This document shows, piece after piece, positions 34,901 to 63,159 of a stretch of DNA of 64,000 nt (positions are counted from its first letter, which is position 1; each line of letters starts with the position of its first letter). The position numbers and the translations under genes were made by a program. The notes below the pieces were generated by a model. That model was not told where the DNA came from. It did not search any database and saw only the letters and a list, made by a program, of their open reading frames with translations. Location: positions 1,674,001-1,738,000 of the forward strand of contig NC_091968.1 in the NCBI RefSeq assembly GCF_036711975.1. Reading direction: 5' to 3'. Source of the DNA: Onthophagus taurus. Its lineage: Eukaryota > Arthropoda > Insecta > Coleoptera > Scarabaeidae.

Positions 34901-37479
34901 ATTAATTCTGGTAAGTTAAGTGTAGTGATCAAGGAAGTTAAGTGAACACTCTTTGTGACTTTATTAAATAAAAATTTTTAAGCATGTTAAAGATGTTTTT
35001 AACCATTTTCCCCATTTTACAAAATATACTTGTAACATGGATTTTATTTTCGATAAAAGATTAAGTTTGTGGCGATAGCTGTGAGGTGGTTGGATCAGGA
35101 GGATGGAAAGTAGTGTTAGTTGAGTTATAAAAGAGCACGTAGAAGGTGGCCGACATGAAGAGTGTATAATTTTTGCTTCTTCTCCAGACACTGCTTGGAA
35201 AACTTGCGATGCGACCCTCTGCTGATAAAGGGGAGACAAGAGGGAGATAAAGGGGGTAGTCCGTGTTTGCGTTTTCCTCCAATAGGTATCTCCTATCTTC
35301 CGCTCGTTGGCGAATCGATCGACTCATAAGAGTCCTTTTCCATCACCATTGTCTCCAATAGAACTTAGGGGTTGCTCAACGACAGTTCTTTCACCATCGA
35401 TACGTCTGGTATCATTACACAACTAATCCAACACGTGGCACGTGCTGCGCGAAGAACTGTGCCGCACGTGTTCGTGCAGACGCGAGTTGACACGTGCTGT
35501 GCTGTGTCATTTCACACGCGTCTCAATTTGCGCCTAGAACTAACTCAACCTAGAACTAGAAAGTATCGGGTTTAACCCACCCTCTGCTCCATTCCCAACC
35601 CCACATTTGAGAAATTCGCACTGGTTTAAATGTTAATTAACCTAACTCAAAGTGGAATTTCTACACAAAATTCTGAAATAAATCAGTAAATTAGGTGGGT
35701 CCGAATGTAACGTTTAAAGAGGGGGCAACCCCCCCCCTCTAAAAAGATATGTCGCATTTGAGTGACAAAGAATCGAGTGTTGTAGCAGCCATTTTTAAAC
35801 CCGTAATGGAAGGGACACAGAAAGATATCACTCAAGGGAAGAATAGTTTCAGTAAATAATCTTCAGCCAGTAATATTGTAATCTTCAAGTACTTAGTAGT
35901 GTTTTGGCAGCAGTATATAGTGTTCTAAAAGCATTAAATAGCCTTTGCTAACAATATCTAGCTTTCTCCAAGCAATTAGTAGCCTTTCCAACAATATTTA
36001 ACATTCTGAAAGTAGTTAAGTCTTTTAGAAACAGTATCTTGTCTTTCCAATCAGTTTGTAGTTGTTTGTTAGCACTAGTCTTCTCCAAGCAGTTTGAATT
36101 TTTTTATCTAGCATTTTCGAAGCGGTAGGTACCTTTTTTGGAGAGCATATCTCTTCTTTCTAAGTAGTTATTAGTCTTTTCCAGCAGTATTTAGCGTTCT
36201 GGCAGCATTAGGTAGTTTTTTGGGAAGCATATATTTCTTTCCAAGCAGTTATTAGTCTTTTCCAGCAGTATCTAACATTCTGGAAACAGTAGGTAGGTTT
36301 TTGGAAAGCATATCTCTTTTCCAAACCATTCTTAAAGTCTTTGAAAGCAATAAGTACCCTTGGAAGCAGTATTCCGCCTGTTCAAGTAGGTCAAAACCTT
36401 TAGCAGCAGTGTTTAGAGTTCTGGAAGCAATAGGTATTATTTTGAAAACAGTATCTAGTCTTTTCTAAGTGAGTTGTGGTCTTTTTCTGCAGTATCTAGT
36501 ATTTTACAAGTAGCAGGTAACTTTTTGAAATAGTGTTTTATCTTTCCAAGCAGTTTTTAGTCTTTTACTAGCAGTATTTAATCTTGTGATACCAATAATT
36601 AGTCTTTTACCAACAGTATCTAGCATTCAGGAACCAATAAGTTAAATAGGAGGATATAGATTTCAGGTTATCATTAGTTTATAGATGGTAAACAACAACA
36701 TTTTAGTCGTTGTGCGTCGAAAACCTAAGAAACAACCGTATTTGACCCAAAAATATGCGAAAATATATGGTTAGTACCGTTGATGACGTCACATGAGTGA
36801 TTTTTTGATAAGTTTTACACTTTTCTGCAGTTTTTTATTTGTAAAAATTATCGATTTTTAAGATTTTTGACATGATGATTCATGAATTATACCTTATTTT
36901 ATTTTAATTAACCTGATTGAAAGACGTATTTAGCTAAAGATTGCATTAAAGTAGCCGGCCATGTAGGTGGGGCCGTTTCACCAGCTTCTCGTTTCAAACG
37001 AAACGTTAATTCAAACCCAAAACCTGAAATTCCTTCCGGGCATGAAACATCGTGAACTCTTCCATCTCCGTGAAGATCGGACAAACCAAAACTAATGTAA
37101 TGCCAGTGTGGGGGGATGTTTTCGTGTGGAACCCCTGGATTTGCATACATCGAAATATAATCTAAAGGATCTGGACCACCTAACCTATTTTCAAAAGAAA
37201 ATTCTATAAATAACTCCCCCATTTTAAATTTATAACAAAACCAAAAAAGAACAATTCCTTCAACAGGAAGTAACTAAATAGGGTGGTAAAATTTAAAAAT
37301 AGCTCACCCCAAAAATACCAAATTTAAACTCACCAAAATTTTAATAAAGCTGTAACTTGTAAAGGATTAACTTGATCGGGATAAATTTTTCGACATAAAC
37401 TGTATAACGATTCGAGTCCGGCGGGCGTTGGTGGTAAAATCGGGGGGCCCTGAGCAACCGCTGCCACCACCTCGTCCAT
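31278..37479 (-). CDS. Su(fu): Suppressor of fused, Su(fu), four exons
   Basis: Su(fu) is the cytoplasmic/nuclear binder and inhibitor of the Gli/Ci transcription factor in Hedgehog signalling. Minus-strand exons are 37334-37479, 36913-37184, 31985-32213 and 31278-31923: 1293 nt, 430 residues, phases consistent at every junction. The start is MDEVVAAVAQGPPILPPTPA; the first exon ends in the YPDQVNPLQVTALLKFW block. The N-terminal SUFU domain spans about residues 49-215 and the C-terminal domain about 330-430. The length is close to other insect Su(fu) proteins. Intron 2 is 4.7 kb and filled with transposons, while introns 1 and 3 are about 149 and 61 bp. The gene is head to head with Lrrk, 691 bp between start codons. 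Confidence 0.95.
31985..32213 (-). CDS. Su(fu): Su(fu) exon 3
   Basis: Acceptor TTTAG|GTAATACA and donor ACTGA|GTAAGT. Reads GNTLCPGDHVSWHCALDNSE, SRIQHMLMTTDPQLRSTKTP, FGNVEFVQIVGVCADEMRAA and QQWNGAGILDMIGKIT, near-identical in pattern to animal SUFU. Confidence 0.95.
32214..32629. other. Su(fu) intron 2, left part
   Basis: AT-rich intron DNA next to the exon 3 acceptor, with no element recognised before the palindromic block. Confidence 0.3.
32630..33025. repeat. Palindromic TAGAACTA block in Su(fu) intron 2
   Basis: At least two hairpin units around CGCACGTCTCTCAAGACGGC, flanked by AACTAGAAACATTCGG and inverse copies. No element ends seen, so it is a partial copy. Confidence 0.7.
33440..33752. 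mobile_element. MITE nested in Penelope-like element
   Basis: Left TAACAGGACTGCTACATCCA (33441) is mirrored by TGGATGTAGCAGTCCTGTTA at 33716. Inner arms TACGTCACACCATTTTCCACGCC and GGCGTGGCAAATAGTGTGACGTA also pair. AGAAAAAGCT occurs at both outer borders and looks like a 10-bp target duplication, because removing the insert restores the PLE reading frame. The right side has about 16 extra bases after the TIR. Confidence 0.65.
33806..34605 (+). mobile_element. Mariner-like element with about 65-bp TIRs, internally deleted
   Basis: 33808-33872 (ACAGGTGTTTCAGGTTTTTG, then TAGCAGGACTTTAACAGTCG) is mirrored at 34540-34603 (CGACTGTTAAAGTCCTGCTA, CTGAAACACCCTGTAT) with TA at both ends. Inside, the plus strand has GRGGPVAWPPRSADLNSLDF and VYATPVSTREQLINKIRNAC, the C-terminal end of the DUF4817-type transposase. 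The rest of the transposase is deleted. Confidence 0.8.
34916..35530. other. Unassigned Su(fu) intron DNA
   Basis: 35061-35327 holds an open minus frame of 88 codons without recognised domain. 35400-35520 is GC-rich with CACGTG cores (ACACGTGGCACGTGCTGCGC, GACACGTGCTGTGC). 35530-35580 is a scrap of the palindromic family. An old retroelement is possible but not shown. Confidence 0.3.
35865..36640. repeat. About 21-bp minisatellite, long array, inverse orientation
   Basis: More than 30 variants of AGCAGTATNTAGNNTTCT with a period of about 20-23 bp (for example TTTCCAGCAGTATTTAGCGT, CTTTCCAAGCAGTTATTAGTC). This is the reverse complement of the TACTGC...AGAAG family in the Raf intron. Confidence 0.75.
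36641..36912. other. Su(fu) intron 2, right end
   Basis: AT-rich DNA up to the donor (CAG|GTTAAT on the minus strand at 36913/36912). Nothing else seen. Confidence 0.3.
36913..37184 (-). CDS. Su(fu): Su(fu) exon 2
   Basis: The acceptor AATAG|GTTAGG completes the TGG codon begun in exon 1: W-LGGPDPLDYISMYANPG, ENIPPHWHYISFGLSDLHGD, GFGFELTFRLKREAGETAPP and TWPATLMQSLAKYVFQS. These are the most conserved blocks of the SUFU domain. Confidence 0.95.
37334..37479 (-). CDS. Su(fu): Su(fu) exon 1
   Basis: ATG at 37479-37477, reading MDEVVAAVAQGPPILPPTPA, then GLESLYSLCRKIYPDQVNPL and QVTALLKF, ending in TG before donor GTGAGT at 37333. The start is the only Met before the conserved block. Confidence 0.9.
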
Positions 37480-38170: not shown

Positions 38171-38710
38171 ATGTTGGATTCATCGCCGGAAGAGGAAGAT
38201 TTTCCAGGTAGACTCCTTCATCAGGTGATTAATTAAGATTAATTATTCTCACAATGTAAAAGTGATTTTTTTTTAAAGGCTGCTTTATGGGATAACACGG
38301 AACTTTTAGAAGATCTTTTAGCTGGGGGGCAACAATCTTTTATTAATTCGCAGGATAGTTGGGGGAGGACACCTCTTCATGCAGCAGCAATTTGCGAAAA
38401 TTCTCGATGTTTACGAATATTGCTCAATGCAGGGGCGGATCCGAGTGTTCAATGTGGTCCTCAGGGTGAAAATAAGGTTATAATTAAATTAAAAACCTTT
38501 CTAATTTGTAAATTTTGTTAATTTCTTTGAATTTTCTTGGTTAGACTCCAATGCATTTGTGTGCTGAACATGGTTACGCCGGTAATATTAAGGTTTTGTT
38601 GCAACAAGGGGCTAGTATGCTGACGAGAGATATTAATGGAATGACTCCTTCTGATTTAGCGGATAAAGCTGGGCATACCGAGTGTATTGGTATACTCAAA
38701 GAGGCTGCGG
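38171..38710 (+). CDS. Lrrk: Lrrk exons 1-3, first ankyrin repeats
   Basis: Exon 1 (38171-38224) reads [18 protein letters not shown]. Exon 2 (38279-38476) has [20 protein letters not shown] and NAGADPSV. Exon 3 (38545-38710) has [20 protein letters not shown] and [20 protein letters not shown], ending G before donor GTAAGT. These are clear ankyrin repeats; introns are 54 and 68 bp. Confidence 0.9.
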
Positions 38711-41700
38711 GTAAGTAATCAAAATAAATTCAAAAAATATTTAAGGTTATTGATCCCACAAAAAAAAATTAATAATAAAATAAGATTATTTTGATTTATC
38801 AAAATGACCTTCGTTATCTAAAACCAGTCCTTTAATTAACATTCTTATCTAAATAACACCAGTTGTTATTATTTAAACATTAACCCAGTTATAAATCTAA
38901 ATCCAAAACCAATTATCTAAAAATACAAAAAAAAATTATAAACTTTCTAGTCATTCATAAATAATAAATAATTCTTATCTTTGTGGTGATTTTTAAATGG
39001 TAAGAAGTTTTTAATCTCTATCTTTTAAATTGGATCATTATCCTTTCTCGCGAAGGCTGCGCGTTTTTCATCCAACATCAGTAACGTTTGATAACTCGCC
39101 GCGACAACACGATTACTTTCGTTTACGCGCAAGTTTAAACCGGTCGTTTTAAAATAGCCGCGCGAAAATTGAAAAAAAATTCAAAATACCACGATGAATC
39201 TTCAGCACGTAATGATCCGATGTATTTGTACCGGAATTTTACTCTTAATTTTATTGTATCTAATCGCGGTGTTGTTACAAAAGAAATTTGCGCGAGAATT
39301 GACGACACCGATCGTGGAAACCGAAACTTTTAAACCGACCACGATGATGTTTGAACTTCAAACTCGGATTAAAAACGATTCGAAACTGATTTAGATGTGT
39401 TATTTTTATTTTTTTATAAGATTTATGAGTTGTAAAATGAGAATGTTTGATTTATTTTTGTGACCACAACGGATTTAGATCGATATCTATAATACGGTGG
39501 GTTATTCGTTTTTTTAAACCGCGATTATTCTTTTTTAATTTTTTTTTTGGTTTCGTTATATTGGTTAAGGTTGAGTATTGATCCGTATGGAGAAACAGCT
39601 GTAGAATGGCTGTAGTATGGTAGTCGCCAACCGGGGTTTTAGTTGGGGTTTTGAGGAGGGTTGGGTGAGAACGTGCCCTTTTTAGTTGACATTTAAACTG
39701 TTTTGAATAGTAAGGGTCGAAGAGAAATGTTTTGAGAAAAGATTTTTTTTAAATAGATTATTTCCGGTTTTAAAAAGGCGAGAAAGATTAAGTGGATAAA
39801 AAGAAGTTTAAATGATAACAAGTGATATTTTATATTTTTTATAACAAAGTAGTGAAATGGCTAAAATTAAAAAATTAACTTCACCTGATTTGGCTTTTGA
39901 CGCTTGTGATTATTTCACTGATGATGTTGTTGTGGCTGTAGAAACAGGTAAAAAAATATTATTGGTGCCTCCTTATGCTGCCTAGCCTGTTTTTCCATCT
40001 GCCGCGCTCTATGGAGTGACTTACGTTTAGGGATTGCAATCAAGAAAAGTTTTTATAATACCGGGATTTCGGGATCAGAATTCTCTATCACGGGTAATCC
40101 CGGGTTTTATGGGCTACTAGAGGTGGAACGGATATCATCCGTTTGTTCGGATATTAAAAACCTATCACTTAGTACTCCACCATTCACAGGAATTAGTATC
40201 TCTTTTATTTGTTGGACACTGCAGATAATAATCAAGTTCAACCCCAATAGGACTTTTTTCATTGAATACAACCTTATTTATATCAGGTTTGTCATTAGCA
40301 ACCTCATTGTAACAATCCCAATACGATATATAAAATCTCTTGTTACAGTTTTGTCTAGTTTTCTACTCTTCGCTTATAATTCATCATCACATTCATTACT
40401 AACAGAACTGCTGCTGTTATCACTTTCGATTATTAATTAAAGTATCCTCTTTTTAATGCAAAAAGCCGTTTTGAAAAATCACTTTCAGTTCTTGAGAAAT
40501 TAATTTTTGAAATGATCGACAATTTTTTCGAATTTTGCAATTTTCGCCGAATATTATCCGGAAATATGCTTTTTCCCGTTTTATTGAAAATAGGTTGCCT
40601 ACCACCGTTTTTAACGATAGGATGTACGATTTTGATATGTTCGATGCTAGTTTTTTTTGTTACCAAATACAGACAATAAAGCACTTGAGTAAGATGATTA
40701 ATAATTTGAAACTAAAAATTTGGCAAAACTTAACCTTAACAACCTCTTATAACCTTCTAGACTATTTCAAGCAGTATATAGACTTCTGTTTGTTCTCTGC
40801 CAACAGAATTTAATCTTCTGTCAGCAGTTTCTAGACGATTTCAAGCAGTATATAATCTTCTATAGGCAGTATCTGTCTTCTGCCATCAGTGTTTAGATTA
40901 TTTCAAACACTATAATATAGACTTCTATAGACACTATTTGTCTTAAGAAAAATATCAGTTTTGTCATTAGCAACCTCATTGTAACAATCCCAATACGATA
41001 TATAAAATCTCTTGTTGTAGTTTTGTCTAGTTTTCTTCTCTTCGCTTATAATTCATCATCACATTCATTACTAACAGAACTGCTGCTGTTGTCACTTTCG
41101 ATTATTAATTAAATATCCTCTTTTTAATGGAAAATACCGTTTTGAAAAATCACTTTCAGTTCTTGAGAAAAAAATTTTTGAAATTATCGACAATTTTTTC
41201 GAATTTTGCAATAAAATTCATATTGACAATAAACTTAAGCTTTGTTCGTTGGGACTGCACTACTTGCACTCACTTGCACTATGCAGTTTAGTGCAGATGT
41301 TGTGTGTTCGTTGGGGATAGTGCAGTTTAGTGCAGTTGCACTCATAAGCTTTGTTCGTTGGGACTGCACTACTCTGCACGACATGGCACTCGTATGACGT
41401 CATAGTGCAATGAAGTGTAAGTAAGTGCAATGTCATGTCAACTTAGTGCAGGCCAGAAAAGTGTATAAACCGTGGTCGTAACGAACAGATTAGCTTTGTT
41501 CATTGGGACTGCACTACTCTGCACGACATGGCACTCGTCTGACGTCATAGTGCAATGAAGTGTAAGTAAGTGCAATGTCATGTCAACTTAGTGCAGGTCA
41601 GAAAAGTGTATAAACCGTGGTCGCAACAAACAGATTTTTATCAAAAAAAGTGTATAATATGTTGAGGTTATGTTAATGTCAAAAAAATATAACTTAATAA

Positions 41701-44700
41701 TAATAGTTTTATCTTTTTATAATATTTTTATTACAACTTCACCAACAGCTTTACTTTTATCTTCTGCAGAGTTCGAGAAGAATTTGGCGTTAACAATGAC
41801 GGACTGATTTGGAATTCTTCCTTTGCCTAATAATTTATAATAACCCTAAAAAAAGAAACAAATTAATATCTTATTTATAGTCTGTTGTCCATTTCTCTAT
41901 CTACTATCTTGTCCATTTTGTACTGCCTCTACTGGGGTTGAATGTACTGTGTTCTCTAATACAACAAATATGAATTATAATATTAAATATTAAGAAATAA
42001 AATTCTTAATATTTAATATGAATATTAATTATTACAAAACACGCTTTCAAATATTCCGCCATTTTCGTTACACTGCACTTATTGAACTTAATCGAAAGCA
42101 GGTGCAACAAAATCTGCACTAACTTGCACCGGCTGCACGAAGTTGCACTACGCATGGCCCAACGAACAGTATGAGTGCAGCTGCACTAAACTGCACTGTC
42201 CCCAACGAACACACAACATCTGCACTAAACTGCTTAGTGCAAGTAGTGCAGTCCCAACGAACAAAGCTATTTTTATCAAAAAAAGTGTATAATATGTTGA
42301 GGTTATGTTAATGTCGAAAAAATATAACTTTATAATAATAATTTTCTCTTTTTATAATAATTTTATTACAACTTCACCAACAGCTTTAATTTTATCTTCT
42401 GCAGAGTTCGAGAAGAATTTGGCCTTAACAATGACGGGCTGATTTGGAATTCTTCCTTTGCCTAATAATTTATAATAACCCTAAAAAAAGAAACAAATTA
42501 ATATCTTATTTATAGTCTGTTGTCCATTTATCTATCTACTATCTTGTCCATTTTGTACTGCCTCTACTGGGGTTGAATGTACTGTGTTCTCTAATACAAC
42601 AAATATTAATTATTATAAGGTTTTATTTCTTAATATTTAATATGAATATTAATTATTACAAAACACGCTTTCAAATATTCCGCCATTTTCGTTACACTGC
42701 ACTTATTGAACTTAATCGAAAGTAGGTGCAACAAAATCTGCACTAACTTGCACCGGCTGCACGAAGTTGCACTACGCATGGCCCAACGAACAGTATGAGT
42801 GCAGCTGCACTAAACTGCACTATCCCCAACGAACACACAACATCTGCACTAAACTGCTTAGTGCAAGTAGTGCAGTCCCAACGAACAAAGCTATACTGTT
42901 CGTTGGGTCAGGTGCAGTGCAATTTAGTGCAGCCGGTGCAAGTTAGTGCAGATTTTGTTGCACCTGCTTTCGATTAAGTTCAATAAGAGCAGTGTAACTA
43001 AAATGGCGGAATATTTGAAAACGTGTTTTGTAATAATTAATATTAATATTAAATATTAAGAAATACAACCTTATAATAATTAATATTTGTTGTATTAGAG
43101 AACACAGTATATTCAATCCCAGTAGAGGCAGTAGAAAACTACCCCTACTTTTTTGGAATAATTTAAAAACTACCCTGTCGATTTTGGCGGCATTAAATAC
43201 ACTTATAGTACATTTAAAAGTATGTGTTTTTTCTCATTTAAGGGTGGCTGGGGTTAACTACCCTCACCACCACAAATTTTTTTTTGCAAGTACTGCTTAT
43301 CAATTTTGGTGCAATTTAACATGTGATTTCTTTATACGTTAAGTAGTACTTTTGAAAGAACTAATAAGGGTTAGTAGTTTGGTATAGAAAATATATTTCG
43401 CTAAAAAATAATAATAATAATTGATGAATACTAAAAAAACGCTACTAAAAAAACATTCTGCGATAATTTCATTTTCCACGAGTATTTCGCTGACAATCTC
43501 CTGTTCGTCCATTTCAAATATTATACACTTTTTTTATAAAAATTGTTCGTTGGGACCACGGTTTATACACTTTTCTGACCTGCACTAAGTTGACATGACA
43601 TGGCACTGACTTACACTTCATTGCACTATGACGTCATACGAGTGCCATATCGTGCAGAGTAGTGCAGTCCCAACGAACAAAGCTTTAATCGGCGAAAAGG
43701 CCAATCAATATGGCCAATAAATATTGACAAACTGTAATTACTTCAGACTATCAATATTTATTGACAATCTATTTAGTTTTGCGTTGGCTGTCAAAGATGT
43801 CATGTCATGTTTACATGTGTTAATGAACCATCCTGTGAGTTAATAGCATTTTCGTCCATTAAAGTATATCTGTCTGAATTCATTATTACGCGATATAATC
43901 CGTAATATAATCCTATTAACGTAGGATTGTCAATATTTCCCTCAGACTGTCAATATATCAAATATTTTCGGTTTCATCAAACCATCTCATCAATATTTTT
44001 AATATTGACAATATGTCAATCTTTCTACTCACACGTTCAATAATATTGTCAATACTTAGATATTGACAATATACAGGGTGATTCAAAAAACCGCTGACAG
44101 ACTTCTAGAGTAGATAATACATGAAAAATTAAGATGAATAGTCTTAATATACATGGAATCGCAAATGCCTCCTTAACGAGATATAGCGGGTCAAAGTTTC
44201 TTTAAAATTAAACATTATCTACAATAAAAAACCCTCTTTTAAAAATATTGTCTACGCCATTGCTAATTTTGTCAAACGGGCGGTAATTTCGTGTAAAGTG
44301 ATCAAATCTATCAATTGGTCTCTTACAAAACTTTGATTAAAGCAATAGTTTTTAAGAAAAACACGTTTGTAGAAAATGTGTTAATCCAATCAAAAATTGT
44401 TGCTTTAATTAAAATTGTGTAAGAGACCAATTGATAGGTAATTGACCACTTTACACGAAAATACTGCCCGTTTGACAAAATTAGCAGGAACAATGTTTGA
44501 TTTTAAAGAAACTTTAACACCCTTATACCTCGTTAAGGTTGCATTTGCAAGCCTTGTATATTAAGACTTTTCATCTTAATTTTTGATGTATTACCTGCCC
44601 TAGAAGTCTGTCAGCGTTTGTTTGAATCACCCTGTATATTGAACGTGTGAAGGGCGCTTTAAAAATTCGTATAAAATCCATTTCTTGGAATATGAGTATG

Positions 44701-47700: not shown

Positions 47701-50700
47701 ATTTAATTGCATATCTAAGTAATTTTAATTTTAGATGCACGCGAAAAAGCAAGATTAGACATCCACGCAGCTCTTATAGATTCTTGCAACCATGGAGATT
47801 TTGACTCAATGCAACAATTACTCTCTTCATTATCAAAAGATGCCGAACTCATCGTTAATATGGCACCAAGCGGGGCAAATACTTTACTGTTTACGTAAAC
47901 AAATTAATATTAATAATTTTTTTTAATTAATTTTTGGTATTATTTTTTAAGGGCATGTCAAATTGGTAATAAAAACATTGTAAAGATTTTATTGGAATAT
48001 GGAGCCGACGGTCGATACCATCCAGTTACTAAATACTCCCCGTTATACATCGCTTGTTATCACGGACACCGAGAAATCGTCGAAATGTTATTATTAAGAT
48101 TTCCCGAATTAATTAAGCAACACACCGTTGAAAGGTGGCTTCCAATACACGCCTGTTGTATTAACGGGCATATAAAAGTTTTGGAGTTATTGTTTCAATT
48201 TCCGTATCCGAAACATATTTTAAGAAAATTTAGGTAAATCAAAAATGTTAAAATCAAATTAAAAAAAAAATTAAACATGTTTTTTTTTTAGGGATATAAC
48301 TGAACGTTGGGAATATTTAATGCCGTTTGATATAAATGAAAGAGACGCAACCGGGCAAAATATTCTTTACGTAGCTAGTTTATTGGGAAATAAAAAGCTG
48401 TTAGATGTTATTTTAAAATTTCGAGTTCGAGCGACGAAAATTGTACCCGAAGATGACGAAACAACCCCAAATTCCGAAAGTAACCCTCTCGTTAGTCCAA
48501 TCAAACGTCGGCTTTCAAGCGGAATTATTTCAATTATGTCCAAATTAAATCTTTCTAGAGAAAGTTCCACCGAATCTGAAGTAATAAAAAAATTATTTTT
48601 GTATAAAAATAATTTATTTTTGTATAAAAATAATTTATTTTTGTTATAAGGATTAATTATGTTTACTCAAACATGTTTAATCGACGTTTCGGCCTATTAT
48701 AAGCCCATCATCAGGATTTTATTATAAATCAAAAAGACAAGTAAACATAATATTTTACAATTAAACAAAATTTATGTAAACGTTAGAACAAGTAACAAAA
48801 GCATGCGTTAACTTCATAATTGCAAAATAAAAAAATGATACAAAAGTTATCTGTGGCATTTCGCACATTTCAGCGTTTGTGTAAAAAATTGTATAATTTA
48901 TTTTTAACAAGTAGGCTTTAAATTTTATAACAAAAGATACCTCCTGTCAAAATAACAATTAGTTTGTACCTGCAAAAAGTAAGCTTGTATTACAAAATTA
49001 ATAAAAATGAATTACACAAACGCTGAAATGTGCGAAATGCACCTTTATGGAATGGCGTGCGGTAATTCAGCGAAGCACGGCGGTTGTATCAAGAGAAACA
49101 TCCTGATCGTCCAGTACCACACCACAACTTGTTTCTACGCATTCACCAACGACTACTAATACTGCTGATAATGGGCGGCCTAGGGAAGTTGCAAATCCCT
49201 AAGTAGAAGAGGCAGAAAAATTGCTCAGAACTTAAACCTATCTTACTCGACGATTTGGAGAATTTTGAAAGGGCAACTTTTGTATCCCTACCATACCCAA
49301 AGAGTACAAGCCTTATTGCTAAGAGATTTTCCGCTTTTGGCTTTTTGTACATGGATGCAAAACAAAATAGCTCAAAATCCTGAATTTGGAGCGGAAGTTC
49401 TGTTTACCGATTAAGCATATTTCTCAAAGGATGGTATTTTCAATTTTCACAATAACCACATATGGGCAGAAGAAAATCCACATGAAATTACAGAAGGCCA
49501 TCATCAGCAACAATTTTCCGTAAATGATTGCTGTCATCGTCGGTAATCCGGTAGGCTCACATTTTTACCGAACAGATTAAACGGTGCAGATTATCGACAA
49601 TTTCTAGAAGAAGTACTGCCGGAACTGCTGCAAGATGTATCGCTTCAAGTAAGACAAAACATGTACTTTATGCATGATGGAGGTCCGGCCCACTTTAGTT
49701 TGGTTGCTCGCTAATAGTTGGATACTTGCTGTGTTCTATTCTTCAGGTAAGCCTCGACAAGAGCAACAGCGTCATTAGCAAAGTTATACACTTTAGATAG
49801 ATTCCTCAAGAGAATCTGATGTGACACGCAGTCAAATGCCCGCGTCAGATCCAAAAACATTGCAATGCAATAATGACCCCTTTCAAAAGAATCCAAGGAC
49901 ATGTCAACGAACTTGATAACAGCATCCGACCCTTTCGAAATCCGTATTGATTTGGGCAAAGCAAGTTATTTCCCTCTATATAAGAAACCATTTTATCATA
50001 CATTGCACGCTCAAACACCTTGGAAAAAGCCGGCAGTACACTTATTGGCCCATAATTGGAGCAGTCCATAGTATCTCATTTTTTTATGCACGGGCACCAC
50101 GTTAGCTATTTTCAATATATCAGGGAATTGAGAATCAGCAAATACTGAATTTAGAACTTTTGTCAACGGTAGTACGTACATGTCTACATTCCTCTTTATA
50201 AAATAAGTTGGGATGGAAAAAACATCACGTGTAGGACTACTCTTCAATGAACAGAGCAATTCATGTACTTTAACAGGACCAACTTCTGAAAAATGAAATT
50301 GCGCTACTATTTGATCCACACATTCACATATGAGAATGGGATCAAGCATACCACTTGGCAGCCCTTCAACGATATCATTGGGAGTATCAACGAAAAATCT
50401 ATTCAGCACATTCGGATCAAGATTACTATTTAGATTGCTTTTATCGTTGATTCTATTTTCATTTATTATTGATCACACTACACTAGCTTTCTTTTTTGCA
50501 GTATTTATAAAGCTGCTAGTTGCCTCCAGCTTAGATTCAGCTATAGCCGTTCTATACTCACAATGATAATCTTTTTTGGCTTTTAACAAATTGGGGGACC
50601 TGTAACGGCCGTATAACTCACAAACCAAACTATAGCCAGCACGCATTTCTCTGAGATTGTCATTGTACCATCTGACACCACAACACGCTTTCTAGTTGAG

Positions 50701-53700
50701 AAGCATTTCTCTGGAAAACACATATTAAAAGTATTTAAGAATCTCTCGTGAAATATGGCAAATTTATCGTTAGCATTGAAGTGTAGATCATCCAACATCT
50801 CCCACGCAAACTGACTAAACAAATTGAAAAACAACAATTTCCACACCCAGTCAACGGCCGACATATCCTATTCAGATACAACACACCCCCCACATCACCG
50901 GTGTACGAAACAGTAATGTACTGCGCCCGATGATCTGACAGATTGGGTTCCGTGACAGAGGTAGTGTAATTGCCAATGGCAAAATTTATAAATATATTAT
51001 CCAGACAGTTTCCGCCCTTAGTTGCTTCCGTAACAGTAGGGTAAAAACGATAGCTCAAGGACAGGTCACACACCATAACAACGACCCCATCTGAACTACC
51101 AACCTTCAGGTTACAATCACCAACTACAAAAACTTGCCTAAACTGAGTCGGGATTTCCAAGAGACAACTGGCGTTCCGACAAAAAGTTTGAAAATCACCA
51201 GCAGGCGATCGATACAAGCAAACTACAACTCAAAATCGACACAATTGCGCTATCTCGCAATGGATTTCCAACGTTGAATTATTAATGGAATCAGATCTGG
51301 CGTAAGAAGATAGGGTTTTCCATTGCGAGACACGCAGTCCATGAGTAAATCATCTCCCTTCAGCCAATGTTCACTAATACATATAAAATCAAAATTACAA
51401 GTATTCTCAATCAAATACGCCTCAAACTCATCAATTTTATATCTAATACACTGTATATTAATATGAAACAAGGTTATAGATGAATTATCAACTAAATAGT
51501 ATCCGGTATTGTTTGAATTGGACAAAAATTCGAATTTATATTACCACTTTCTATCTCCTTCACCGTATTATTTACAATAGTGATCTGACCGTTACCCTTG
51601 TTACATTTCGATGTACGAGTTATTGTTTGCGCAACATAAGAAAAAACCTTATTCTTTCCCCGTATATTCATAGTGGAGACCATGCTTTGTTTTGTCATGA
51701 AAATTCAAAATACTATTTACATCAACAAAAGAAATGCGGTTATTTTTTAGCGCATTCACAAAGTTAAAAAGTTTACAGTTAAAACGATCCTTTGTTCAGA
51801 TCCTTTTCTTCATACCAATAAGGCACCGATAAGCAGGGGACATTACACCGCATTGACAGTTTTTTTATTTTCTCCAGAGTCCCACTAATCATTGGCTTCC
51901 ATACTAGAACATCGTTAGTACCAGCAATCACTCCCATTGAAATCCCTACAAAGCTGTTCACTATCATCACAGATTACATTTTCGTAGGTAGCATTCGATT
52001 TGCACACTGTAACTGCACTGTAAGCACGTCAAACTTGCTATATATTCTGATTATAAATGTAGAATATTAAAAAAATGTTTAAATGTATTATTTCTAAATG
52101 TTTCGTCGTTGCTTTTTGCTTAAAATTGTAATTGTTCTCTTAGATTTATATTAAAATCCTGATGACGGGCTTATGATAGCCCGAAACGTCGATTAAACAT
52201 GTTTGAGTAAACATAATTAATCCATGAGGAATGTGTTATTTTCCTGCGAAATTATCCTTATAATAAAACAAATCGTCGTAATTAAAATCATATACAATTT
52301 ATTTTTGTTTTTAGGGTGAACACATCTCTTTAATATGTCCTTTAAAAATCGATATGTATTGTAATAATAACATAGAAACTGCCCTACATGCTGCTGTTAA
52401 AGGAAAACATTACGATATAGTTTTATCACTTTTAAACGCTGGTGGAAATCCTAATTTAATTATTAAAGCTTATTTAGATTATAACGAGGTAAAAAAATTT
52501 TTTTTAAATCAATTTATCGTTTAATTATTATTTTTAGAGTATTAGTTGTTACTCATTAGAAGATGACGTCAATTCCGGTCAATCAACAGCTTTAGTTGAA
52601 GCGTGTAAAAATCGCGATGTTCCAATTGTTGATTTATTACTTCGTTTTGGGGCTCGCGATGACGATTGTAAAGCACTTTTTGTTACCGTTCAAAATAAAG
52701 ATGAAACATTAACCGCGAAACTTCTTTCCATAAAAGTAAGTTAACGTTTTTATTAAATTAAATTAATTCTATTTATTTAATTTATTTTTAGTCAAACCCT
52801 GACCCAGAATACAAAATAAATAAAAAAGCGATGACTGAGAACATCAATTCGCCTCAATTCACTCTTTTCTCAGGAATGTCGAACTTAACTTACAGCACAA
52901 TCTTTCCAAACACCCCAGCAATGATAAATTGGCACAACCAAAAATGTCATTTATCTCAAATTCGGACGCAATGGCTCATTGATGCCGCGCTGCATTTAAA
53001 TCCAAAGTTAAAACAAAATCCGAGAAGTTACGATATAGCTTTATACGCGATAACTCGTTTGGATATTTCGAACAATAGCATAACTTCAATTCCTTTGGCC
53101 GCCTTTCAGCTTTACAGTCTTCGTTACTTAAACGTGGCTCAAAATAAAATCGAAAAACTTCCGATTCCGGTCGAATCGCCGAATAAAAAAACTCACCGAC
53201 GAAAATCTTCGAACGTTGTTGAAGAATTAAATTATAATTGCCCCGTTTTAGAGGAGCTGTATCTTCAAGATAATCGTTTGGACCAGATTCCGGATGCTTT
53301 GTTTCGATTACCCAGCTTGGTTACGTTGGTTGTTTCGAATAATAAGTTGCAAAATTTGCCGTATAATATGTGGTTAGCGCCGAAATTGAAAGAGTTGAAC
53401 GCTTCTTTTAATTTATTGAAAGATTTGCCGGTTAATAACGTTATTGATAATACCAAAGAAGACTGTGATAGACTCAGCGTAAGCTCAAGCGATAGTCAAT
53501 TATCGAGTCACACGGATGTTGAAGTTGAAAGTGACGCTTCTTGTTGTTCGGATGTGGAAAGCGATTCGATTGGGTTTGAAGATGGGGTTGTTCCGATTAG
53601 GTATAGAAAGAAAGACAGATCTTTAATGTAAGTTTTTTATTTTTAATTAAAAAATACAGTGAATTTCATTTAAGATGCAATATACCAAAATATATTTCCA

Positions 53701-59700: not shown

Positions 59701-61465
59701 CCGAATTTATCAATGTTGGATATCAGCAACAATTTATTAAAAGAAGTCCCAACGAATATTTACGACCTAAATAACCTCTCAGTGTTGAATATCAGCGGAA
59801 ACTTAGGTAAACAAATTTTGAGATAGATTGCCCAGAAATCCGCGAAACTAAATCTATTTTTAAATTTACCGATTTAAATTTAGACATCAACGAGTTGCCG
59901 CCGCAAATGGGATTGTTGTCGCGTTTGTGGAATCTGAACACCAGAGGTTGCTCGTTGCAGGAACCGCTTAAGTCGATGATCGACAGCAAGAAATATAAAA
60001 CGATGGATATTATTGGTTATTTAAAATCGGTTCTTGAAGACGCCAGACCGTACGCTAGAATAAAATTAATGATTGTGGGCGTTCAAGGGATTGGAAAAAC
60101 TAGTTTGTTGGAACAACTAAGACAAGAAGGAGTTAGTAGAAAAAAACCTGAGGTACCAAAGATTATTTAAATTTTTTTTAGGTTATAATAATTTATTTTG
60201 TCCACAACTACCTTATAATATATACCTTATAAATGAGTTTTCTAAATCAAAAGGGTAGTCATTTTTCACGGAGTGAATAATAATTAATTATTAATTAATT
60301 ATTTACGGGTAATCAACTTGACATAATAATAATTATTTGAAATGTCAAAATTTCAAAAAACGTCAATTTAATTTAATTTTTTAGTACTTTCTAAAGGTTT
60401 CACATTAAAAAAACGTAAACAAATTCCTTTTTTTCTATGATTTAAGCATAAATTAATTAATTTTCTTAAAAAAACATGACGTTTCGTAAAATTGACATTT
60501 AATTTTGACAAATTGTTGTGAAGTTGGTTACAGTTGGTAACATTGAATTTGTGTCACATTGACGTTTAAACTTTATTCAAAAATGTATTTAAAAAAAATA
60601 ATTTATGGAATCAATTTCAACAGTAGTCCTGGACAAAGTATAGTATTTTATTCACATAGCCCTCATTATATGCTCGTCTAATAATATACTATTTTTTTTA
60701 AGCATTGGGCAAAACGTATGGGAAATAAAAACATAAACGTAAAAACTTGTCGCGGTACAAATATATCAACGGTTGGTGTCGATATAGGAGATTGGATTTA
60801 CGAGAAAAAAATTCGAAATCAATCAACACACGGCCCCGTAATTTTCCGAACATGGGATTTTGGAGGACAAAAAGAATACTACGCAACGCATCAATATTTC
60901 TTATCAAAGCGTAGCCTTTATTTAGTTGTATGGAAAATCGCTGATGGTTACAAAGGAATAAACGAAATCCTCCAATGGTTAGTCAACATCCAAGCTCGGG
61001 CCCCGAATTCGCCCGTTTTAATCATCGGAACCCACTACGACATCGTCCAAGAACGAAATCCAACCGTTTCCGAAGAATACCAACAAGTAATAAGAGATCG
61101 TTTCATCAATATAGTCGATGCGGAAAAATGCGGACTCCCTCGGGTTTTAGACACGATTGAAATTAGTTGTAAAACGAGGCATAACATAAAATTATTGTGC
61201 AATTTAATTTATGACACGGTGTTTAGTTTGAGACCGCCTGGAAGTAAAGAGTTACTTTTAGAACAAAAGGTGCCCGCTTCTTATTTGGCTTTGGAAGATG
61301 TTGTTAATCATATTTCGGCAGAGAGGCGAATTAATAATTTAGATCCGGTTTTAAATGCGGAACAATATCGGACGATTGTTACGACGGAAATGCAACAAAG
61401 ATATGGAAGGAGTTTCAGGGATGCTGGTGAATTACATCAAGCTACTTTATTTTTACACGATAATG
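38171..61465 (+). CDS. Lrrk: Lrrk, leucine-rich-repeat Roc-COR kinase (N-terminal 1369 codons)
   Basis: Homologue of Drosophila Lrrk and human LRRK1/2, a Roc-COR GTPase plus kinase acting on endolysosomal and Golgi membranes. Thirteen exons: 38171-38224, 38279-38476, 38545-38710, 47735-47894, 47952-48233, 48292-48580, 52315-52488, 52538-52735, 52792-53627, 59036-59615, 59668-59806, 59884-60152, 60703-61465. The sum is 4108 nt with correct phase at every junction. Domain order: ankyrin repeats (about residues 19-505), LRRs (about 560-1040), Roc GTPase (about 1080-1270), start of COR. The gene continues past the window with the rest of COR and presumably the kinase and WD40. Three introns have been expanded by transposons (9.0, 3.7 and 5.4 kb), while most others are 49-87 bp. 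Confidence 0.93.
38711..39193. promoter_or_regulatory. Lrrk intron 3 start; CpG-containing patch before a small ORF
   Basis: 38711-39000 is plain AT-rich intron. 39040-39180 is markedly richer in CpG (TCGCGAAGGCTGCGCG, CTCGCCGCGACAACACG) and holds AAACCGGTCGTTTT, close to a Grainyhead site. This is the kind of patch expected of an internal promoter ahead of the ORF at 39194. Confidence 0.35.
39194..39394 (+). CDS. Candidate 66-residue single-pass membrane micropeptide, nested in Lrrk intron
   Basis: Not recognised. ATG in context CCACGATGA, TAG at 39392. The protein has a strongly hydrophobic segment (about residues 10-28, [20 protein letters not shown] region), then KKFARE and a polar tail [20 protein letters not shown]. 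That layout suits a signal-anchored or type III small membrane protein. The codons use the CG-ending type (GCG, CCG, ACG, TCG) also seen in the neighbouring host genes, unlike the transposon debris. It lies on the Lrrk strand, but no splice signals tie it to Lrrk. It could also be chance. Confidence 0.45.
   Translation: MNLQHVMIRCICTGILLLILLYLIAVLLQKKFARELTTPIVETETFKPTTMMFELQTRIKNDSKLI
39395..40117. other. Lrrk intron 3; possible coding scrap at 39857-39985
   Basis: A 42-codon frame at 39857-39985 ([20 protein letters not shown], then [11 protein letters not shown] followed by a GTAAAAA donor-like site) has gene-like composition but no known match. At 39990-40110 hAT-like terminal DNA begins (TAGGGATTGCAATC, ACGGGTAATCCCGGG). 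Confidence 0.25.
41717..41845 (-). pseudogene. Captured RpL27A-like last exon, copy 1
   Basis: On the minus strand a T-rich tract and AG are followed by 43 codons ending [39 protein letters not shown], then VVIKIL. This aligns with the C-terminus of ribosomal protein L27a (uL15), [28 protein letters not shown]. Only the last exon and part of its intron are present, inside a repeat unit, so it is a captured gene fragment rather than a working gene. Confidence 0.65.
42352..42480 (-). pseudogene. Captured RpL27A-like last exon, copy 2
   Basis: Same structure as copy 1 but closer to the family: [26 protein letters not shown], then VVIKLL and TAA. It keeps the ancestral Pro, Lys and Ile that copy 1 has changed. 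The frame is open over 43 codons and the acceptor AG is retained at 42482-42481. Confidence 0.7.
44071..44637. mobile_element. Foldback MITE, about 565 bp, TA duplication
   Basis: The ends TACAGGGTGATTCAAA and TTTGAATCACCCTGTA, and nearly the whole length, pair as two arms: AATTGGTCTCTTACAAAACT at 44315 against TGTGTAAGAGACCAATTGAT at 44416. TA flanks both ends, as in mariner-derived MITEs. Confidence 0.85.
44994..46014. other. Lrrk intron 3, unassigned
   Basis: Low-complexity AT-rich DNA with short frames on both strands that do not match anything known to me. A CTGATGAGG..GAACGCC/GGCGTTC hairpin at 45245-45275 (minus) resembles transposon terminal structures. Confidence 0.3.
46015..46205 (-). 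pseudogene. hAT transposase fragment
   Basis: The minus frame reads [40 protein letters not shown] and [19 protein letters not shown]. This is the TDGA..M...G / HQLCxAHG block of hAT transposases, including the region of the second catalytic Asp. Only this piece survives. Confidence 0.65.
46428..46471 (+). ncRNA. Weak hammerhead-like motif (Penelope-type terminus)
   Basis: ATTTC - CTGAAGA - 17 bases - GAA - ACCGGT - A - GAAAT. Stem I (ATTTC/GAAAT) is perfect and ACCGGT could act as a self-complementary stem III in a dimer, but the stem II segment does not pair well. It resembles a degenerate Penelope-like terminal motif. Low confidence. Confidence 0.25.
46500..47000 (-). pseudogene. pogo/Tigger-like DDE transposase fragment
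   Basis: The minus strand reads [98 protein letters not shown] and [10 protein letters not shown]. This is the DDE_1 catalytic region with two acidic positions (DQSGF, LLLDSW). Frame breaks and truncation at both sides. Confidence 0.7.
47001..47734. other. Lrrk intron 3, right part
   Basis: 47100-47320 (ATCGCTGGGGTTGATC ... AATAAGGGTAGTTCGCCCC) is an inverted relative of 43130-43330, so both derive from one repeat family. 47640-47734 is ordinary intron ending TTTTAG. Confidence 0.35.
47735..48580 (+). CDS. Lrrk: Lrrk exons 4-6, middle ankyrin repeats
   Basis: Exon 4 (47735-47894) reads [20 protein letters not shown] and GANTLLFT. Exon 5 (47952-48233) reads [40 protein letters not shown] and [20 protein letters not shown]. 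Exon 6 (48292-48580) reads [20 protein letters not shown] and a Ser-rich linker ending [10 protein letters not shown]. Introns 57 and 58 bp. Confidence 0.92.
48679..48718 (-). ncRNA. Hammerhead-ribozyme-like motif, left end of insertion
   Basis: Minus strand: AATC - CTGATGA - T - GGGCT/TATAAT/AGGCC - GAA - ACGT - C - GATT. Stem I AATC/GATT pairs perfectly. Stem II has one mismatch. Core CTGATGA and GAAACGTC are intact. Confidence 0.4.
49005..49715 (+). pseudogene. Mariner-like transposase relic, DUF4817 family
   Basis: [20 protein letters not shown] (49007) is the HTH start. Later [65 protein letters not shown] and [18 protein letters not shown] show the catalytic part. Many stops and shifts; it ends where the LINE fragment begins. 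Confidence 0.7.
49711..52030 (-). mobile_element. LINE (CR1/Jockey-type) with ORF1 esterase, endonuclease and RT pieces
   Basis: Minus strand, 5' to 3'. At 51970-51779 the SGNH-type esterase of ORF1 ([35 protein letters not shown]). At 51525-51250 the endonuclease start ([34 protein letters not shown]). At 51217-50735 [31 protein letters not shown] and [10 protein letters not shown]. At 50069-49711 the RT ([49 protein letters not shown]). It is cut before the YADD box and has several shifts. Confidence 0.8.
52155..52194 (+). ncRNA. Hammerhead-ribozyme-like motif, right end of insertion
   Basis: AATC - CTGATGA - C - GGGCT/TATGAT/AGCCC - GAA - ACGT - C - GATT. Stem II is 5 perfect pairs with a six-base loop, stem I is AATC/GATT, and the core is intact. 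As in the 6980 motif, one base sits between CUGAUGA and stem II. This is the best folded of the hammerhead-like motifs. Confidence 0.5.
52315..52735 (+). CDS. Lrrk: Lrrk exons 7-8, last ankyrin repeats
   Basis: Exon 7 (52315-52488) reads [40 protein letters not shown] and NAGGNPNLI. Exon 8 (52538-52735) reads [40 protein letters not shown] and [12 protein letters not shown]. Intron 49 bp. Phase 0 junctions on both sides of exon 7. Confidence 0.92.
52792..53627 (+). CDS. Lrrk: Lrrk exon 9, leucine-rich repeats
   Basis: Reads [20 protein letters not shown], then LRRs: [75 protein letters not shown] and [17 protein letters not shown] Ser/Asp-rich acidic insert ([20 protein letters not shown]) follows, then RYRKKDRSL and AT before donor GTAAGT at 53628. 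The acidic insert is typical of the variable part within LRRK repeats. Confidence 0.94.
53880..55870. repeat. Palindromic TAGAACTA / GGTTTAGCCGTC array 1
   Basis: About ten units. Each has arms made of CTAGAACTAACACTA-like 9-10-bp subrepeats around AATCATTCGGGTTTAGCC, a GTCTTTAGAGAC centre and the inverse arms. Two sub-blocks (54300-54400 against 54070-54150) also share AGACAGACGTGTTGTCTGGT. Confidence 0.8.
55871..56509. other. Unique AT-rich part of the large element
   Basis: Recurring phrases such as GAAGTT, GTTGATGTTAA and TTTCCTGTTA suggest an old degenerate repeat, but no period could be fixed. No coding. Confidence 0.3.
56510..57340. repeat. About 142-bp degenerate satellite
   Basis: GATGA(A/G)GAATACGATGCA-like starts at 56511, 56654, 56798, 57082 and 57223 (spacing 143, 144, 2x142, 141). 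A palindromic unit is inserted at about 56870-56955. Several monomers translate to a similar phrase ([33 protein letters not shown]), but T-rich stretches and stops between them argue against coding. Confidence 0.65.
57370..58850. repeat. Palindromic TAGAACTA / GGTTTAGCCGTC array 2
   Basis: Further units of the same family. 57880-58040 contains a stretch of TCTAGA..TTTCTAGA type (GAAAGTTTCTAGACACTTCT, GAAAGCTTCTGGACGCTTTT), possibly a heat-shock-element-like GAA/TTC run, unique within the array. Confidence 0.7.
59036..60152 (+). CDS. Lrrk: Lrrk exons 10-12, last LRRs and Roc P-loop
   Basis: Exon 10 (59036-59615) follows TTTTTTAG only 29 bp after the large element and reads [49 protein letters not shown] and [15 protein letters not shown]. 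Exon 11 (59668-59806) reads [20 protein letters not shown] and [10 protein letters not shown]. Exon 12 (59884-60152) reads [20 protein letters not shown] and [20 protein letters not shown], with GVQGIGKTS the GTP-binding P-loop. Introns 52 and 77 bp. Confidence 0.93.
60153..60702. other. Lrrk intron 12
   Basis: 550 bp of AT-rich DNA, including ATTAATTATTAATTAATTAT runs and several TGACGTTT/ACGTCAATTT phrases. No element or gene seen. Confidence 0.4.
60703..61465 (+). CDS. Lrrk: Lrrk exon 13, Roc GTPase core and start of COR
   Basis: Reads [20 protein letters not shown], then [34 protein letters not shown] (switch II), [34 protein letters not shown] and YDIVQ (THYD is the guanine-specificity motif). 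The Arg in QARAP corresponds to the human LRRK2 R1441 position by alignment from memory. COR begins after [10 protein letters not shown]. It ends in G before donor GTAAGA at 61466; the next exon is not in the window. Confidence 0.94.
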
Positions 61466-61504
61466 GTAAGAACAAAAATGCCCATTATGTATGGTATATA
61501 GTAT

Positions 61505-63159
61505 ACAGGTGTATCTAAATTGATGCGAAAGATTTTAAGGGGTGATTTTTCAGCGAAAATTAAAAAACCACTTCTCCTCCAAGTTACAGCCCTCTAAAAC
61601 TGGGAAAAAAAATTGTTCTTTAATAAATTCACTATGGAGGAATTTGGAAGGATGAAATTTGGTAGATAACTATTACTAATAAGGTGATAGTTTTTGACGA
61701 TTTTTATAACCCCAATATGTTTTTATAAGGGGGTGAAAAAATCCACCCCTATGATACTTCGCATCAGAACTTTTTAATGCATCTACATTTTTCTATTTAA
61801 AAAATTAATCAAAATAGAGGGATTCAATATGCAACTTTTTTGTCTCTTAACATTTTCTCCTAAAGTTGTTAGTTTGTCCATAAAAAAATAAAATAGTACC
61901 TATTTGACACAAATTCATAGTATGGTTATTATTTATGTAAAAATATCAAGTAGGCTGATGTCATAATGACAAATTTTTCAATATTATAACAATAACAATT
62001 AACAAAACTACAAAAACAAATAATAACGTTAACAAAATATTAATAATCATAATAAATATTGAAAATGCCGCCCCTCAGCAGCGACGCACGATTCTACCCT
62101 TCGCCTCATTGAATTTCGTATTCTTTCAAATATTCCTGGTGTATTCCTAACAGTTTCACATGATGCGATGATACGATTCCGTAAATCTTTAATATTTTCA
62201 ACAGGAGTTGAGTAAACCAGGGTTTTAAGAAAACTCCAAATACAGAAATCTAATGGATTTAATTCCGGAGATCTGGCTGGCCAATTCTGAGGACCACCGC
62301 TGCCTATCCAACGTTTTGTATAAACTTCGTCTACGTAGCGACGAGCGTTAATACTAAAATGCGCATGTACCATAATTCTCGCTTGATTTCTATCGAAACG
62401 TCATCAAGAAGCAGGGGCAACTCCTCTTCGAGGAAATTACAGTATGCGTCTCCATTTAATCTCATTGGAAAAAAATATGGTCCAATTAAATAATTGTCAA
62501 TGACACCAAGCCATACATTTAATGAAAATTGGTGTTGAAAATTGGATTCAACAATTTTATGTGGATTTTCTTCAGCCCATATGTGATTATTATGAAAATT
62601 TCTGATGGATTCTTTTGAAAAGTTACAAAATCAGTAAATAAAATACGACATAAAATCTGCGGGGTTTGTGTAACTATTTGAAGAATCCATTGGCAAAAAA
62701 TGCATTGGCGCTTGAACACGTTGCAGATGACAAGGATACAAAAGTTCTTCCTCTAGTACTACATTATGTACTTCTCGTGAACGTCCGCAATCGACAATTC
62801 TTCTTGAAAAAAATGTTGCATATTGAATCTCTCTATTTAAATTAATTTTTTAAATAGAAAAATGTAGACGCATTAAAAAGTTCTGATGTGAAGTGATGTG
62901 ATAATTACAATTACATAATTACAACATCAAGTTATTATTTATATTAATAATATTACTTCTTTTATGAAGCTTTTTCATTGAGAAAAATTAACAACATTAA
63001 TTTGTATGTTTAGACTGGTTTTGACTTGATAATAATATATGTTTATTTATTTATCGTTTTTTATGGTAACCGGAAAATCCGTTTTGACCAAAAAGTTATA
63101 TGAAAGACCCCCCTTAATTTTCATTGAAAAATCACCCCTTCAAATTTAGATAACCTGTA
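61505..63159. mobile_element. Mariner-like element in Lrrk intron 13
   Basis: The left end ACAGGTGTATCTAAATTGAT with AGGGGTGATTTTTCAGCGAA is mirrored at 63107-63159 (TTCATTGAAAAATCACCCCT, AAATTTAGATAACCTGTA), with TA at both sides. An inner inverted pair (61769-61815 and 62837-62885, TTTAATGCATCTACATTTTT type) and the minus-strand transposase relic lie inside. Confidence 0.75.
62047..62830 (-). pseudogene. Mariner-like transposase relic, DUF4817 family, C-terminal half
   Basis: Minus frames give [120 protein letters not shown] and CVAAEGRHFQYLL. The third catalytic Asp (NPLDF) is present. The block that should read MHDGAPAHFS is damaged (MVHAHFS), and frameshifts separate the pieces. Confidence 0.75.

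Follow-up and report, generated by a model that had tools for sequence, protein, structure and literature searches.

That TIR transposons capture gene pieces is well known from plants, whereas the record for animals is thin. For animals, the main text of Tan et al. 2021 (PMC8277862), which deals with 100 animals and in which the word Harbinger is absent, gives four multicopy Pack-TIRs and no Pack-TIR in insect reference genomes. The Ssk-FB4 Pack-TIR of Drosophila melanogaster was judged there to be MULE-like; a nearly whole gene lies between TIRs of ~700 bp, with a 9-10 bp TSD, at 3 loci, of which one is duplicated in tandem. The western clawed frog hAT-N8_XT Pack-TIR, found at three loci, carries a 291-bp piece with the CAPSL 5' UTR, and a C. 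elegans Pack-TIR contains the last coding exon of F43E2.6 with a part of its 3' UTR (both in the main text of PMC8277862). In maize, passages of Gisby and Catoni 2022 (PMC8903248) describe Pack-PIF elements.

The window analysed here is a stretch of 64,000 nucleotides of the Onthophagus taurus genome (NC_091968.1, positions 1,674,001 to 1,738,000). The C-terminus of ribosomal protein uL15/L27a is encoded twice on its minus strand, at 41720-41845 and 42355-42480. With copy 1, phmmer matched 54 distinct sequences among the PDB chains at E ≤0.01; the best matches (E ~7e-11) were named L27, L27a or uL15, and in one example residues 107-145 of a 148-residue L27a were covered. The Pfam Ribosomal_L27A profile matched copies 1 and 2 with E values of 1.3e-6 and 3e-10, respectively. 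Both searches agree with the first-pass annotation, which had placed two minus-strand L27a segments here, each directly preceded by a T-rich tract and AG; the tract and the AG are present in both copies. The copies lie in two copies of a transposable element, called E here, of which the inner one is inserted in the outer one; the exon-less relatives of E are called N. The features of the exon copies are as follows.

41717 to 41845, minus strand: exon copy 1, 42 codons and stop; 35 residues, then EVVIKIL from the 3' flank (phmmer, Pfam, alignment)
42352 to 42480, minus strand: exon copy 2, 42 codons and stop; closer to the parental protein (Pfam, alignment)
41846 to 41847, minus strand: splice acceptor AG of copy 1, with the T-rich tract before it (read and alignment)
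42481 to 42482, minus strand: splice acceptor AG of copy 2 (read and alignment)
41727 to 41732, minus strand: AATAAA poly(A) signal of copy 1, present in the parental gene too (alignment)
41662 to 41882, minus strand: captured RpL27A segment in the inner E, comprising intron end, last exon and 3' flank; limits ± a few bases (alignment with the gene L050 and the exon-less copy L029)
42297 to 42517, minus strand: captured RpL27A segment in the outer E; limits ± a few bases (alignment with L050 and L029)

The match to L27a, previously given as 43 codons, holds for ~35 codons, whereas the last 7 (EVVIKIL/EVVIKLL) are read-through into the 3' flank. Similarly, the upstream stretch described as intron-like contains ~35 bp of the RpL27A intron, but farther out it is element sequence that is also present in L029. 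Copy 2 had been considered more ancestral than copy 1, and the residues concerned, which are changed in copy 1, are indeed those of the parental gene.

The parental gene was searched for in the whole genome (290.8 Mb, 33 contigs). That this is an insect genome agrees with Pfam 7tm_6, the family of insect odorant receptors, which had at least 134 matches in it (127 of 345 candidates scored) but none in 14 prokaryote controls. The Ribosomal_L27A profile gave 23 matches, with all 24 candidates scored: the loci L048 and L050 and 21 element copies. L050 (C11:25766015) is the ordinary RpL27A gene, with upstream coding exons, an intron of ~180 bp and a last exon of 42 codons with stop. In L048 (C6:1746553) the profile matched over the full domain, within a 213-residue open frame; this is probably the mitochondrial L15 gene. 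The host locus with the same terminal exon, for which a search had been suggested, was found at C11:25.766 Mb. An ordinary uL15 gene lacking the repeat, with the segment in no other repeat copies, had been named in advance as evidence against capture; such a gene exists, but the exon is also carried by 22 element copies.

The DNA search with the captured segment gave 23 places (23 of 23 candidates scored), corresponding to the gene and 22 element copies on 7 contigs; one of these, L017, was missed by the protein search. According to the alignment of the 22 copies to the parent, the captured piece starts ~35 bp before the last exon, in the intron, so that the acceptor is included, and contains this exon in full; it ends ~55 bp after the stop, beyond AATAAA. 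In L050 coordinates this is about 1486-1707, ~220 bp. The exon was identical to the parent at 119-124 of 129 positions in the 7 whole-exon copies, at 104 of 110 in L017, and at 99-106 of 104-112 in the 14 deletion-type copies. The intron end matched at 31 of 34 positions in 9 of the 22 copies and at 27-30 of 30-34 in another 10; little or nothing of it is left in L023, L054 and L056. Of the 22 copies, 14 have lost the native stop through a shared in-frame deletion of 21 bp (17 bp in the alignment of L012), so that their frame runs on into the former 3' flank as EVVIKLL or variants. The native end is kept in 8 copies; both window copies are of the deletion type. The pairwise divergence among 16 full copies was 1.2 to 9.4%.

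The retained intron end, which aligns with the parental intron, and the parental sequence continuing for ~43 bp beyond AATAAA indicate that the capture took place at the DNA level, as had been proposed together with amplification inside a repeat; the latter is borne out by the 22 copies. The segment extends to the 3' end with AATAAA, as it would if an RpL27A mRNA had been retroposed as a processed pseudogene fragment that later fell into the repeat. However, no poly(A) tail was seen, and the T-tract and AG of the intron end are present in 19 of the 22 copies. Retroposition is refuted by the intron end common to the copies and the parental gene, and its probability is negligible. Two other readings of the segment borders were rejected. 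The junction of L054 at the splice acceptor could have pointed to a spliced and retroposed chimeric RNA, but its flanks belong to the arms of a different inverted repeat. The far arm has CCTGAC and the junction CCTGAG, in agreement with a simple deletion with one base in common. A piece of ~34 bp between the captured intron and the element could have been filler DNA, but it is element sequence in the exon-less L029. By eye, about 5 bases, for which chance might also account, are common to element and parent at each breakpoint, and both breakpoints are blurred by mutation.

The carrier E is ~770 bp long, with TIRs of ~27 bp and 3-bp TSDs. The TIRs of the outer E agree over 27 bases, AGCTTTGTTCGTTGGGACTGCACTACT, of which the first 16 were used in TIR scanning. 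The exon-less relatives N have ~170-195 bp at the start and ~340 bp at the end in common with E. At least 25 genomic matches covered only the element part (40 of 180 candidates scored), so that copies both with (22) and without the exon, the count of which had been proposed, are now on record. The left part of N leads up to a start codon, with which a reading frame (MDEQEIV...) opens that presumably belongs to the transposase; E breaks off a few bases before this start codon. A longer relative, L086, contains a DDE_Tnp_4 fragment (PF13359, E 3.3e-20) and, on the other strand, a Myb/SANT-like gene (PF13837, Myb_DNA-bind_4, E 1.2e-8); L077 also matched PF13837 (E 2.7e-8). The right end and the TIR of L086 are the same as those of E. 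The transposase of L086 is in pieces, and L086 is consequently a relative and not an intact or proven autonomous copy.

Two TIRs were recognised in 16 E copies, 9 of which had identical 3-bp flanks, compared to an average of 3.7 on shuffled pairing (P 0.0006); one of the nine, L009, is not independent since it has the window's inner joint. In the other 7 copies the flanks were not identical, and 6 of the 22 E copies were left out of the count, their two TIRs not being recognised. Counted over all kinds of TIR pairs, with false and repeated ones not excluded, a 3-bp TSD was found in 28 of 57. The TSDs of E were ATT, AAT and ATA, and that of the N copy L027 was AAG. TSDs of the PIF/Harbinger superfamily are expected to have the form TWA. 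This form was not found in the TSD-bearing E copies, and TTA/TAA occurred only with the N in the window and the N copy L041. Given the TSD length and both proteins, we take TWA to be a preference and not a bar to PIF/Harbinger. Due to the 3-bp TSDs and the relative with DDE_Tnp_4 and Myb/SANT-like genes, E is classified as a non-autonomous PIF/Harbinger element.

Host sequence lies between the ends of a TIR transposon, the unit is multicopy with distinct TSDs (22 copies; ATT, ATA and AAT in 9 of 16 testable), and the parental copy, L050, lies elsewhere in the genome; by these features E is assigned to the Pack-TIRs, as a Pack-PIF/Harbinger and not a Pack-MULE. The first-pass annotation had spoken of Pack-MULE-type transduplication. 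The process, in which a gene piece is placed between TIRs and multiplied, is of the same sort in a Mutator-like carrier, but the TSDs are 3 bp and not 9-10 bp as given for the fly Pack-MULE in the main text of PMC8277862, and the relative encodes DDE_Tnp_4 and a Myb/SANT-like protein. The family named is consequently not supported, and a Mutator-like carrier is regarded as very improbable.

Further observations concern other members of the family. In a look for further gene captures by the family, 13 exon-less copies bearing a pair of TIRs were set against N, E and L086, and stretches of ~90-190 bp were unmatched in L085, L087, L029 and L040. In L029, ~110 bp of the interior (positions 566-677 in element coordinates) matched neither N nor L086. 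The final part of this stretch is common to E; the rest is either ancestral element sequence or another capture. In L039 (519-1750) the left-end TIR is present three times at 172-bp spacing, a local multiplication of the element end. At ~1520-1690 of L020, an old E copy, another repeat-like sequence (TGGCGCCGACTACGGGAGGC...) was seen by eye as an insertion in the right end. The genome gave very many DDE_Tnp_4 matches with long open frames and several identical-score groups among the best 150 of 890 candidates. Harbinger elements may thus be young and active in the host insect.

The arrangement in the window, 41235-43687, is a nest of three layers. The strand given below is the element's own orientation, the left end being the one where N begins its reading frame.

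41492 to 42268, plus strand: inner E, 777 bp, TIRs at both ends, exon copy 1 in antisense (TIR pair and TSD)
41489 to 41491, no strand: TSD ATT of the inner E, left
42269 to 42271, no strand: TSD ATT of the inner E, right
41347 to 41491, plus strand: outer E, first 145 bp, split by the inner E
42272 to 42892, plus strand: outer E, remainder, with exon copy 2
41344 to 41346, no strand: TSD ATA of the outer E, left
42893 to 42895, no strand: TSD ATA of the outer E, right
41238 to 41346, minus strand: N (exon-less, opposite orientation), right end, split by the outer E
42896 to 43684, minus strand: N, remainder up to the left TIR
41235 to 41237, no strand: TSD TTA of N
43685 to 43687, no strand: TSD TTA of N

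The 3-bp TSDs are perfect at all three levels, and the removal of each layer with one TSD resulted in an uninterrupted site. The joined outer E (766 bp) was 96.5% identical to L011 and the joined N (898 bp) 97.6% identical to L027, both unbroken across the former joint. As the removal of each layer with one TSD restores continuous elements, the two units are an inner E in an outer E in N. The nearest relative of the inner E is L009 on another contig (1.2% divergence, among 16 full copies), whereas the inner and the outer E are 96.7% identical. The units had been described as tandem; a tandem duplication is rejected on the basis of the TSDs, the uninterrupted sites and the closer relation of the inner E to L009. 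Helitrons carry gene pieces, and two copies stand side by side in the window, which would suit an origin of the copies by Helitron or by segmental or tandem duplication. Against this, TIRs are present at both ends with matching TSDs and an uninterrupted site under each layer, and the 22 copies are spread over 7 contigs with flanks that are unlike where aligned. Such an origin is very improbable, and transposition of E into its own relatives is preferred.

At 658-1562 of L009, the joint between the outer left part and the inner E of the window is present on another contig. The outer element's first 144 bp in front of it in L009 had 1 difference from the outer copy of the window and 7 from the inner one. 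The nested joint has itself been copied or moved, perhaps by the use of mixed ends. A composite transposition of L009 from the outer-left to the inner-right TIR was considered and rejected; the outer flanks, AAT and ATT, are not identical, and a deletion of the outer remainder is therefore equally likely.

The nest appears to be located within an intron of a Lrrk-like gene. Ankyrin exons were found on the plus strand at 38258-38521 and 47932-48237, LRR at 52795-53631, and Roc, with matches to LRRK2 and LRRK1 structures, at 60688-61518; the piece between LRR and Roc, 59814-60170, matched no Pfam family. We infer that the ankyrin, LRR and Roc exons form one plus-strand gene, to which the captured exons are antisense. 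Beside this gene a SUFU domain exon was detected at 36911-37273, minus strand (Pfam E 3.6e-20). By eye, pieces resembling a non-LTR retrotransposon were noted within the gene at 49711-51540 (minus strand) and pieces resembling a mariner-type transposase at 62047-62630 (minus strand).

The reading that a PIF/Harbinger element captured ~220 bp of genomic RpL27A DNA, spread in trans and nested in itself is given a probability of about 0.93. The parental gene, the capture limits, the shared structure of the copies, the TIRs and TSDs and the uninterrupted sites under the layers were observed directly. According to this reading, a non-autonomous Harbinger element took up the last exon with ~35 bp of the intron before it and ~55 bp after the stop, AATAAA included, and this piece replaced the element interior just before a start codon that is presumably the transposase's. 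At the two breakpoints, the few bases in common suggest template switching or gap repair, and the capture probably happened once. The ends, TSDs and relatives are consistent with multiplication of E by a Harbinger transposase in trans. Jumps of E into its own relatives produced the three-layer nest in the apparent Lrrk-like intron.

The acceptor was kept in 19 of the 22 copies, AATAAA in 21 and both in 18; formally, most copies would be able to act as terminal exons. Open frames of at least 35 codons were present in 19 of the 22. These numbers could indicate that selection keeps the copies as functional protein-coding or terminal exons, and two further values point in the same direction. Among 45 distinct exon changes 18 were synonymous, where 22-27% would be expected (P 0.005-0.04 according to the weight given to transitions), although common descent is disregarded in this count and some of the changes counted are ancestral states. 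The divergence of the exon in 12 young copies was 2.4%, lower than that of the two flanks of the element (3.9% and 4.8%), but the non-coding intron end diverged still less, 1.3%. Besides, the copies are young and their frames would survive by default. Frames are damaged in L022 (premature stop), L017 (frame-changing deletion) and L056 (stop at codon 40), L023, L054 and L056 have an altered acceptor or none, and the window copies, being antisense to the Lrrk-like gene, cannot be spliced into it. Selection on the copies is accordingly considered unlikely. Constraint on the captured frame is not claimed; the evidence, which points both ways and is confounded, gives a weak hint of it.

The retained acceptor and poly(A) signal could serve as a portable terminal exon. 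E might then be a gene-trap cassette, a mobile acceptor with a terminal coding exon and a poly(A) signal, of which sense copies in introns would end host transcripts and add an L27a tail. This is a tentative proposal, which we consider possible but rather doubtful. If it is true, the E family makes new 3' ends of genes, and its copies would be purged or kept by orientation.

The present locus is a clear insect case, with 22 copies, the parent, exon-less relatives and self-nesting. Since parent, relatives and nesting are all present, the capture limits, the order of events and the use of the splice site are directly testable. In the literature searched, outside the scope of which most subscription journals lie, no capture of a ribosomal-protein exon by an insect PIF/Harbinger element was recognised by title or the start of the abstract. 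Compared with the accounts in the main text of PMC8277862, E is like Ssk-FB4 in that a host gene piece is amplified between the ends of a TIR element with an own TSD per locus and a few bases are shared at a breakpoint. In contrast to Ssk-FB4, E belongs, as classified above, to PIF/Harbinger, has TIRs of ~27 bp and a 3-bp TSD, and carries the last exon only, in 22 copies. The frog hAT-N8_XT similarly shows a captured piece multiplied by transposition with distinct TSDs, but its carrier is a hAT element and its UTR piece has no terminal exon. The F43E2.6 Pack-TIR of C. elegans corresponds to E in the type of capture; unlike E, it is located close to its parent and forms an alternative 5' UTR of rpb-4, and its amplification is not described in that main text. 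The maize Pack-PIF elements, in the passages of PMC8903248 concerned, share with E the PIF/Harbinger carrier and the exon pieces, one of which gives an exon to a maize gene; the hosts are plants and the donor genes are other ones. E has more copies than the animal examples for which copy numbers are given in the main text of PMC8277862.
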